Source of the DNA: Afipia sp.
GTDB taxonomy: Bacteria > Pseudomonadota > Alphaproteobacteria > Rhizobiales > Xanthobacteraceae
Direction of reading: 5' to 3'
NCBI GenBank assembly: GCA_017308575.1
Contig: JAFKEQ010000006.1
Coordinates: 5,001 to 69,000, forward strand
Length of the DNA stretch: 64,000 nucleotides
Shown: piece by piece, positions 1,825 through 26,054 of the stretch
How the letters are laid out: each line of letters begins with the position of its first letter
Numbering within the stretch: the stretch's first letter is position 1
Position numbers and translations under genes: made by a program
The notes under the pieces: model-generated
Database searches by the model: none
Seen by the model: only the letters and a program-made list of their open reading frames with translations
Told to the model about the DNA's origin: nothing

Positions 1825-2164
1825 CGTCGGCTTGACTTTTGTTGTCTGAGATTATATTCCTATTTTCGCTTCGGCCACGACGTTTCATGAGCGTCATGGC
1901 CGGAACAGGACCTGAGTGACGAGGGTGGAGCGCCGGGAGGCGCAGCGCCTGTCGCATCAGGCGCGCGCGGCTCTCGCAAGGCCGCGCGGCGGACTCGATC
2001 GCAAGAGTTCGCCAAAGGTGCCTCGCAAGCACCTTGGCGCCTCCCGCCGCTCCATCGTCCTGCGCGCGGCGCGGGATCTGGAGTTTTGCAAAGCTCGGAC
2101 GCATTGACTTGCGCCGCGAGGGCGATGCTCGTTGCGCGGCGCGTGATCGTAACGGCGCGGAAAG
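1825..2164. other. Gene-free stretch with structured DNA
   Basis: No convincing coding frame. It contains a hairpin at 1873-1901 (GGCCACGACG paired with CGTCATGGCC, one wobble) and the multi-hairpin element at 1926-2054 described separately. About 110 bases of GC-rich sequence then lead to the stop codon of the convergent glutathione transferase gene. Confidence 0.6.
1926..2054. repeat. Five-way-junction multi-hairpin element
   Basis: An outer stem pairs TGGAGCGCCGGGAGGCGC (1926-1943) with 2037-2054 at 17 of 18 positions. Inside it are four consecutive hairpins: 1945-1964 (7 bp, loop TCGCAT), 1965-1987 (7 bp, loop TCTCGCAAG), 1988-2013 (9 bp with one G-T wobble, loop GATCGCAA) and 2015-2035 (7 bp, loop CTCGCAA). 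Only three bases (1944, 2014, 2036) are left unpaired between helices, and every loop carries TCGCA. I infer a mobile or repeated intergenic element or a structured RNA. Family membership is untested. Confidence 0.65.
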
Positions 2165-25571: not shown

Positions 25572-26054
25572 AGCACCCTCCCAAACGGCCCTGCGACGGG
25601 ACACGTCCAAAAATGATGTCGGTATGAGCGATAAGCCTTTGCCGCACTGTGGAGACGCGACAGAGCCTAAAACTCAAACCAAACTGTGCTGCCGTGGATT
25701 GGTTGGGATTTTCCCGCCCGCACACCTGGCAATGAAGGACAAGCCTTTTCAGTAGCCCGCGCCGGCGTTGGACTGCCGGTAGAGACCAAAAAAGCCCGAT
25801 CCGTCGTTGCTTTAAGTCGCGTCCCCCGTTGAGAGCGGGGTGCGCCGGTTCGCCTCCGGCTGCCAGTCACGGTTGCAAGGAGCGAAGTCACCTTCAACGG
25901 CATCCCTGGAGAGAGATGCTGGCCTCTTAAGCTTGACCTCGTCGGTCAGGTCCTAAGCGACCCTCGGCTTCTTCATCCCTTGGCGGCTGTCCGGCCTCTT
26001 GTCCGGATACCCACCGACTGACACACGACCACAGGCACGTGCGAAATTGGGCAA
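25572..26054 (-). ncRNA. speF leader: speF-type structured leader of ornithine decarboxylase
   Basis: About 480 bases without a credible gene, upstream of ODC. Read on the minus strand it can form hairpins at 25900-25919 (GCATC/GATGC), 25844-25860 (GCCGG/CCGGC) and 25824-25840 (CCCCG/CGGGG), separated by purine-rich conserved-looking stretches. A speF RNA motif is known upstream of ODC genes in alphaproteobacteria (Rfam family recalled, not searched). The 5' end is set by the promoter candidate at 26061-26089. No leader peptide is obvious. Confidence 0.65.

Follow-up and report, generated by a model that had tools for sequence, protein, structure and literature searches.

The OLE RNA is a single-copy RNA of Firmicutes and extremophiles whose gene adjoins the genes of its protein partners. 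This ornate large extremophilic RNA forms an RNA-only dimer in which helices meet in a five-way junction, and protein-docking pockets have been proposed for it (PMC12286853). GOLLD and ROOL, two further ornate RNAs, assemble into homo-oligomers, ROOL by means of kissing loops, and the 3' region of GOLLD is conserved while its 5' region is variable (PMC12286853). Natural RNA homo-oligomers are few, and the family described here adds a candidate that is short, spread over many genera and present in up to 13 copies per genome. On a smaller scale, the dimer initiation site hairpins of retroviruses carry a self-complementary hexamer loop that drives homodimerisation. In CsrA-titrating RNAs of the RsmZ/CsrB type, short hairpins follow one another and repeat a single loop motif, and REP/BIME and MITE repeats are dispersed, palindromic and intergenic.

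We analysed a 64,000-nucleotide stretch of Afipia DNA (the window), in which an earlier note had singled out a folded element at positions 1926-2054. This element is the core of a small RNA gene from a family of structured, multi-copy RNAs, large and so far undescribed, in Xanthobacteraceae. It shares with OLE the character of a noncoding, highly structured bacterial RNA with a five-way junction, the dimer being a prediction in our case (PMC12286853). OLE is longer, however, whereas the present family is short, multi-copy, found in Xanthobacteraceae and has neither a linked gene nor an Rfam match. GOLLD and ROOL resemble it in plan, through homo-oligomeric assembly (predicted here) and a conserved 3' part (PMC12286853), but both are much longer and phage-linked, whereas our family matched no sampled phage or plasmid and no Rfam entry. 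Compared with the retroviral hairpins, the palindrome varies among members and there is no link to retroviruses. The GGA loops of CsrA/Rsm-titrating sRNAs were not found here, the loops being of UCGCAA or GUCA types on hairpins that sit on one long stem, nor were the anti-Shine-Dalgarno CCUCCUCCC-type loops of CcsR/cuckoo RNAs. Unlike REP/BIME and MITE repeats, the unit is a full gene with a promoter and a 3' domain, bears a strand-specific RNA signature and lacks terminal repeats.

The earlier note held that no named feature type covers the element, and Rfam 15 indeed gave no match for it, permissive thresholds included. When 11 related loci were scanned, a flanking tRNA was the only match at gathering score, and a permissive E-value scan of seven related loci returned chance-level matches only; a search of the open-licence literature found no earlier description of the RNA family. 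Since Rfam has no such family, it is invisible to standard annotation, and the window shows only a spurious ORF there. This 63-aa ORF (1916-2107) was ruled out as a gene: downstream frames diverge between copies, and core lengths are evenly spread modulo 3 (52, 48 and 40 among 140 members), indicating the absence of coding constraint.

RNAfold of the plus strand reproduced the proposed five-way junction at 1926-2054 to the base. The outer stem has the 17 pairs that had been described (7 + 10, with one mismatch), formed by a 5' strand at 1926-1943 (UGGAGCGCCGGGAGGCGC) and a 3' strand at 2037-2054, and the junction leaves the expected three bases unpaired between helices. It encloses hairpins H1 (1945-1964, loop UCGCAU), H2 (1965-1987, loop CUCGCAA), H3 (1988-2013, loop GAUCGCAA) and H4 (2015-2035, loop CUCGCAA), all on the plus strand, so that UCGCA is present in four of four loops, as reported. 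Hairpin lengths of 7, 7, 9 and 7 bp hold for the centroid structure, but the minimum free energy (MFE) structure has 7, 8, 9 and 7. The core MFE of -94.2 kcal/mol compares with -61.2 +/- 4.1 kcal/mol for 200 dinucleotide shuffles (z = -8.0, 0/200). The minus strand folds similarly (z = -7.3), because any palindromic fold must.

These coordinates delimit the core alone; the gene extends in both directions, from about 1832 to 2121 with its promoter, and the promoter, the palindromic 5' loop and the 3' domain had escaped the earlier note. Very probably 1832-2121 is a gene in its own right that specifies a structured noncoding RNA of ~255 nt, the RNA itself probably running from ~1865 to 2121 on the plus strand. 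The putative promoter (1832-1862, plus strand) comprises CTTGAC as the -35 element and TATATT within GATTATATTCCTAT in the -10 region; it resembles alphaproteobacterial promoters of the form CTTGAC-N17-CTATAT. A generic sigma-70/terminator scan made no call at this promoter, so its assignment rests on conservation and consensus resemblance. A block TTGAC-N13-GATTATATTCC precedes most Afipia copies, at unrelated loci, and the window version at 1832-1862, TTGAC-N13-GATTATATTCCTAT, is found in Afipia copies at unrelated sites. Next comes a 5' hairpin, P1 (1872-1902, plus strand), whose apical loop contains the self-complementary hexamer UCAUGA (1885-1890). Downstream of the core, a GC hairpin (CCUGCG...CGCGGG, 2059-2075, plus strand) retains its position among copies while its sequence differs, and an Afipia-type 3' hairpin (CTCGGACGC..GCGCCGCGAG, 2094-2120, plus strand) is conserved across non-orthologous copies, with a U-A to C-G exchange (GATGCA/TGCAC versus GACGCA/TGCGC).

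The promoter starts eight bases past the stop codon of its upstream neighbour (901-1824, presumably DUF5996-like). The downstream gene, which we take to be gst-like, lies in convergent orientation, and the RNA therefore appears to be transcribed on its own and not as part of a leader. An RNA copy occupies the same intergenic place in two genomes (G010 and G008) and follows the same upstream gene in two others (G017 and G018); directly after that gene, no copy was present in G013, G024, G027, G022 and G004. No protein gene linked to the RNA recurs across genera, synteny being conserved at genus level only, and hence nothing points to a particular partner. As regards a riboswitch or self-cleaving ribozyme, the copies share no consistent downstream gene, and the one that follows in the window is convergent.

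A search of related genera with a covariance model, R1, gave matches in 78 of 249 sampled Xanthobacteraceae genomes and 22 of 47 genera, with 1-13 copies per genome, and, under strict filters, none in the sampled genomes outside this family (347 of the order, 289 of the class). BLAST of the window's own genome and 60 relatives showed that 17 genomes contain copies, of which many lie at sites unrelated to one another, and a pattern search in named genomes gave at least 100 loci in Afipia, Tardiphaga, Rhodoplanes, Pseudolabrys, Pseudorhodoplanes and other Xanthobacteraceae, a range that puts the window in or beside Afipia; among the matches listed, those in actinobacteria and other distant taxa yielded no elements. 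We collected 140 distinct members and folded each singly. Exactly four branches on the outer stem were seen in 132 of them; in longer members, branches 1 and 2 are enlarged by nested hairpins and the five-way plan is kept. UCGCA, CGCAA or GUCA-type motifs occur in 69% of 564 hairpin loops, and CUCGCAA is the dominant loop, capping H4 in 88 of the 140 cores, compared with 49 different 5' stem heptamers; because members are related, such counts are not independent events. The comparison thus shows that the loops of the core are conserved and its stems are not, and the suggestion of a repeat family is borne out, in that the family is multi-copy and dispersed and keeps its loops strongly conserved. 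The near-invariance of the 17-nt outer stem stems in part from fetching many loci by that very sequence; among BLAST-fetched copies the outer stem varies and covaries.

Two variants were seen among the members. In L115, L136, L142, L145, L150 and L188-L199, branch 2 ends in a long unpaired C-rich loop (CCACCCCCCUC...), a potential pairing partner of ribosome-binding sites rich in G; the loop is present in some members and absent from the window copy. A longer alternative 5' domain is found in L258, L259, L204, L242 and L253, several with a AAATCGCCGCCAG-like end directly before the core; it is shared with longer relatives and marks an intermediate class.

Covariation was assessed in 13 members aligned by sequence only. 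Double compensatory changes were found at 19 of 47 pairs (three pairs in H1, four in H2, six in H3 and four in H4), in 52 cells, and none of 500 shuffles reached either number. The covariation score was 0.297, compared with 0.150 for shuffled alignments (0/500), and it collapsed to 0.02-0.08 for structures with slid partners. In three separate subfamilies, G-U cells outnumbered A-C cells by 80:15, 89:14 and 116:24, counts made on a consensus structure predicted on the plus strand, which somewhat favours G-U. Such an excess indicates that the structure acts as plus-strand RNA, and R1 scored the window at 146.1 bits on the plus strand and 52.7 on the minus strand, 93 bits worse. An elaborate secondary structure of many helices, with covariation, is something that the family has in common with ornate homo-oligomeric RNAs. 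Together with the same-orientation promoter and the RNA-type flanking features, the covariation and the G-U bias speak for the structured RNA that the earlier note had put forward, and we regard the element as almost certainly a real plus-strand RNA.

In many members a P1-type hairpin lies just downstream of the promoter, with a loop made of one base and a palindromic hexamer. MFE structures are a poor guide to these loops, since RNAfold forms weak pairs within them, and palindromy was therefore measured by scanning directly for hairpins, alongside background and mirror controls. At a stem score of 5.5 or more, a palindromic 5' loop was present in 52.5% of members and in 2.7% of random windows. 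Among hairpins with seven-nucleotide loops, 46 of 92 were palindromic in members versus 23 of 889 in the background, the loop geometry for both comparisons having been chosen after seeing the data; a mirror-repeat hexamer control stayed at background level (17/139). At least seven palindromes are used, namely UCAUGA (window), CGAUCG, CUCGAG, CUUAAG, UGAUCA, UCUAGA and CUAUAG, and some longer relatives carry UCUAGG, whose self-complementarity depends on G-U pairs and so exists only as RNA. A hexamer that changes while palindromy is retained is the evolutionary hallmark of homodimers joined by kissing loops, and these palindrome-for-palindrome swaps are evolution's own test of the dimer contact. 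It therefore seems probable that two molecules form a homodimer by kissing of their self-complementary 5' loops. Counting against the dimer, weak U-G/U-A pairs extend the P1 stem into the palindrome in the predicted monomer fold of the window copy. In a strict scan ~40% of members had no palindromic loop, and the window's own genome gave no match to TTGAC followed by a strict GGAWTATAWTCC palindrome. In one complete genome (G131), the short class has CGAUCG and the longer class UCUAGA, and in the window's genome UCAUGA of the window copy stands beside CUCGAG of longer relatives, raising the possibility that RNA classes avoid each other; the assignment of hexamers to classes is not strict, UCAUGA being common to several Afipia classes.

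In non-Afipia subtypes the usual 3' domain is a pseudoknot of the H type whose third loop is A-rich; it was present in 69 of 135 members versus 6 of 600 random sequences. This pseudoknot covaries: stem A occurs in 37 versions, and stem B as CCCC/GGGG, CCCG/CGGG or GCCC/GGGC. After it, 11 of 135 members (32 of 20,000 random windows) carry a TGTTTGA..TGAA motif, which we call boxA-like, of the rrn type, because it is also present in the apparent leaders of rRNA operons (L261, L274 and L281, identified by eye), which are laid out as promoter, leader, motif and a shared downstream block. The pattern GCTGTTTGAMANNTGAAT was found 30 times in G131 and seven times in the window's genome, compared with none for the reversed control. 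Most of the boxA-like sites that were read, including all seven in this genome, mark the 3' end of a longer RNA. The longer RNAs with boxA share with our family the outer stem, the UCGCA loops, the palindromic 5' loop or the pseudoknot domain, so that the window element takes its place as a short representative within a larger superfamily. Both boxA and the GGAAA-type pseudoknot are absent from the window copy. The boxA link raises the question of whether rRNA-type antitermination serves other structured RNAs.

At least seven loci for longer RNAs of this kind are present in the window's genome (G000:C1:35204, C4:439094, C4:468126, C5:430300, C5:635945, C5:979051 and C6:46426; labelled L260, L265, L269, L273, L276, L279 and L282). 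The seven end in boxA-like GCTGTTTGAmAnnTGAAT, and several share a GGAGCGCC...GGCGCTCC stem. Weak model matches of the longer kind at the ends of contigs C3 and C5 suggest that the repeats break the assembly. L265 and L273 represent another type of repeat RNA, which is marked by a CGGCGTGACCGTGGCGACTACGCTCGTGTGC block and also ends in the 3' pseudoknot and boxA; repeats of this class are presumably annotated as hypothetical proteins in related genomes.

Predicted control differs between lineages. Exact GTTC-N7-GTTC, the consensus of the alphaproteobacterial LexA box, was found in eight members, versus 0.4% of random windows, and in several G131 copies; it lies over the promoter in the upstream regions of L052, L061, L065, L071, L083, L115, L120, L142 and L188-L199. 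These belong to one lineage (G131 and one metagenome-assembled genome). Since the box is absent in Afipia, it stands outside a general explanation. Promoters differ in the remaining lineages, and several of them contain TCCTA/TAGGA inverted repeats. In the L187, L249, L241, L256 and L186 promoters, strong inverted repeats, GTCTATAGTCCTAGGACTATAGAC or ATTCCTATAGGAT for example, lie between the -35 and -10 elements or over them and are likely to be a regulator's operator.

What best explains these data, and on the sequence evidence is somewhat favoured, is a multi-copy, self-dimerising scaffold or decoy RNA that would hold out arrays of loops to a partner. The 5' hairpins would kiss to give a dimer, and the dimer would show two fans of four UCGCAA loops, which may be U-turn-like, to a sequence-specific partner. 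Selection keeps the loops of the core and not its stems, so the loops are probably read by something; that a loop-specific partner exists we rate as an even chance. Most simply it would be an RNA-binding protein, a partner of the kind that the earlier note had plausibly suggested, and possibly one linked to rRNA transcription or ribosomes, since longer relatives, like some members, end in an rrn-type boxA. NusB/S10 or ribosome-linked factors would be the first suspects for boxA-bearing relatives, the window copy having no boxA. With conserved loops, a hunt for the partner is directly feasible. Pairing of the UCGCAA loop with UUGCG of the Afipia 3' hairpin was considered and rejected, since the complement is lost when the hairpin changes. 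We hold as a tentative and rather doubtful extension that a lineage-wide superfamily, made up of multi-copy RNAs that dimerise with themselves, combines a palindromic 'address' loop for each class, giving orthogonal self-recognition, with a fan of identical docking loops, a 3' pseudoknot and often boxA as a hook to rRNA antitermination or ribosomes, with LexA-like damage control in some lineages.

Much of the evidence also bears on whether the unit, from promoter to 3' end, is instead a mobile or selfish non-autonomous element copied around the genome, with a structure that serves its own propagation. In G131, 12 copies form a unit of ~380 bp that is sharply bounded, sits in unrelated flanks and is mostly 80-96% identical between copies, and both the copy number of 1-13 per genome and the many copies of longer relatives, also at contig ends of the window's genome, fit such an element. 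Yet inspection by eye of the 12 aligned G131 copies revealed neither terminal inverted repeats nor target-site duplications, no linked transposase or reverse transcriptase recurs beside copies, and the sampled phages and plasmids contained no family match (one viral contig gave a single pattern match). The neighbours of the window copy are moreover constant in several Afipia species, and loops and stems are under clear RNA-level selection, which together make a selfish element unlikely.

The same conserved loops and variable stems are expected of multi-loop seed sRNAs, and the RNA has its own predicted promoter, as a base-pairing regulator would; CUCGCAA would then be a seed shown four times to mRNAs with UUGCGAG. 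Loop variants such as GUCA, ACGUCACU and CGACAAU would not share CUCGCAA targets, however, and four 7-nt loops fit protein or tertiary docking better than seed pairing, so that we find this reading improbable. Action as DNA, as a cruciform or protein-binding inverted repeat, would account for an outer stem that is a near-perfect palindrome and for the folding of both strands. It is, however, very hard to reconcile with the strong bias of G-U over A-C, the loss of 93 bits on the minus strand with R1, the conserved upstream promoter in the same orientation, loops self-complementary through G-U only, the 3' pseudoknot and boxA; the protein-binding cruciform of the earlier note is accordingly disfavoured, and we judge a DNA-level element extremely improbable. 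Elsewhere in the window, at 25624-26052 on the minus strand, Rfam gave adjoining matches to the speF leader and the alphaproteobacterial sRNA ar45.
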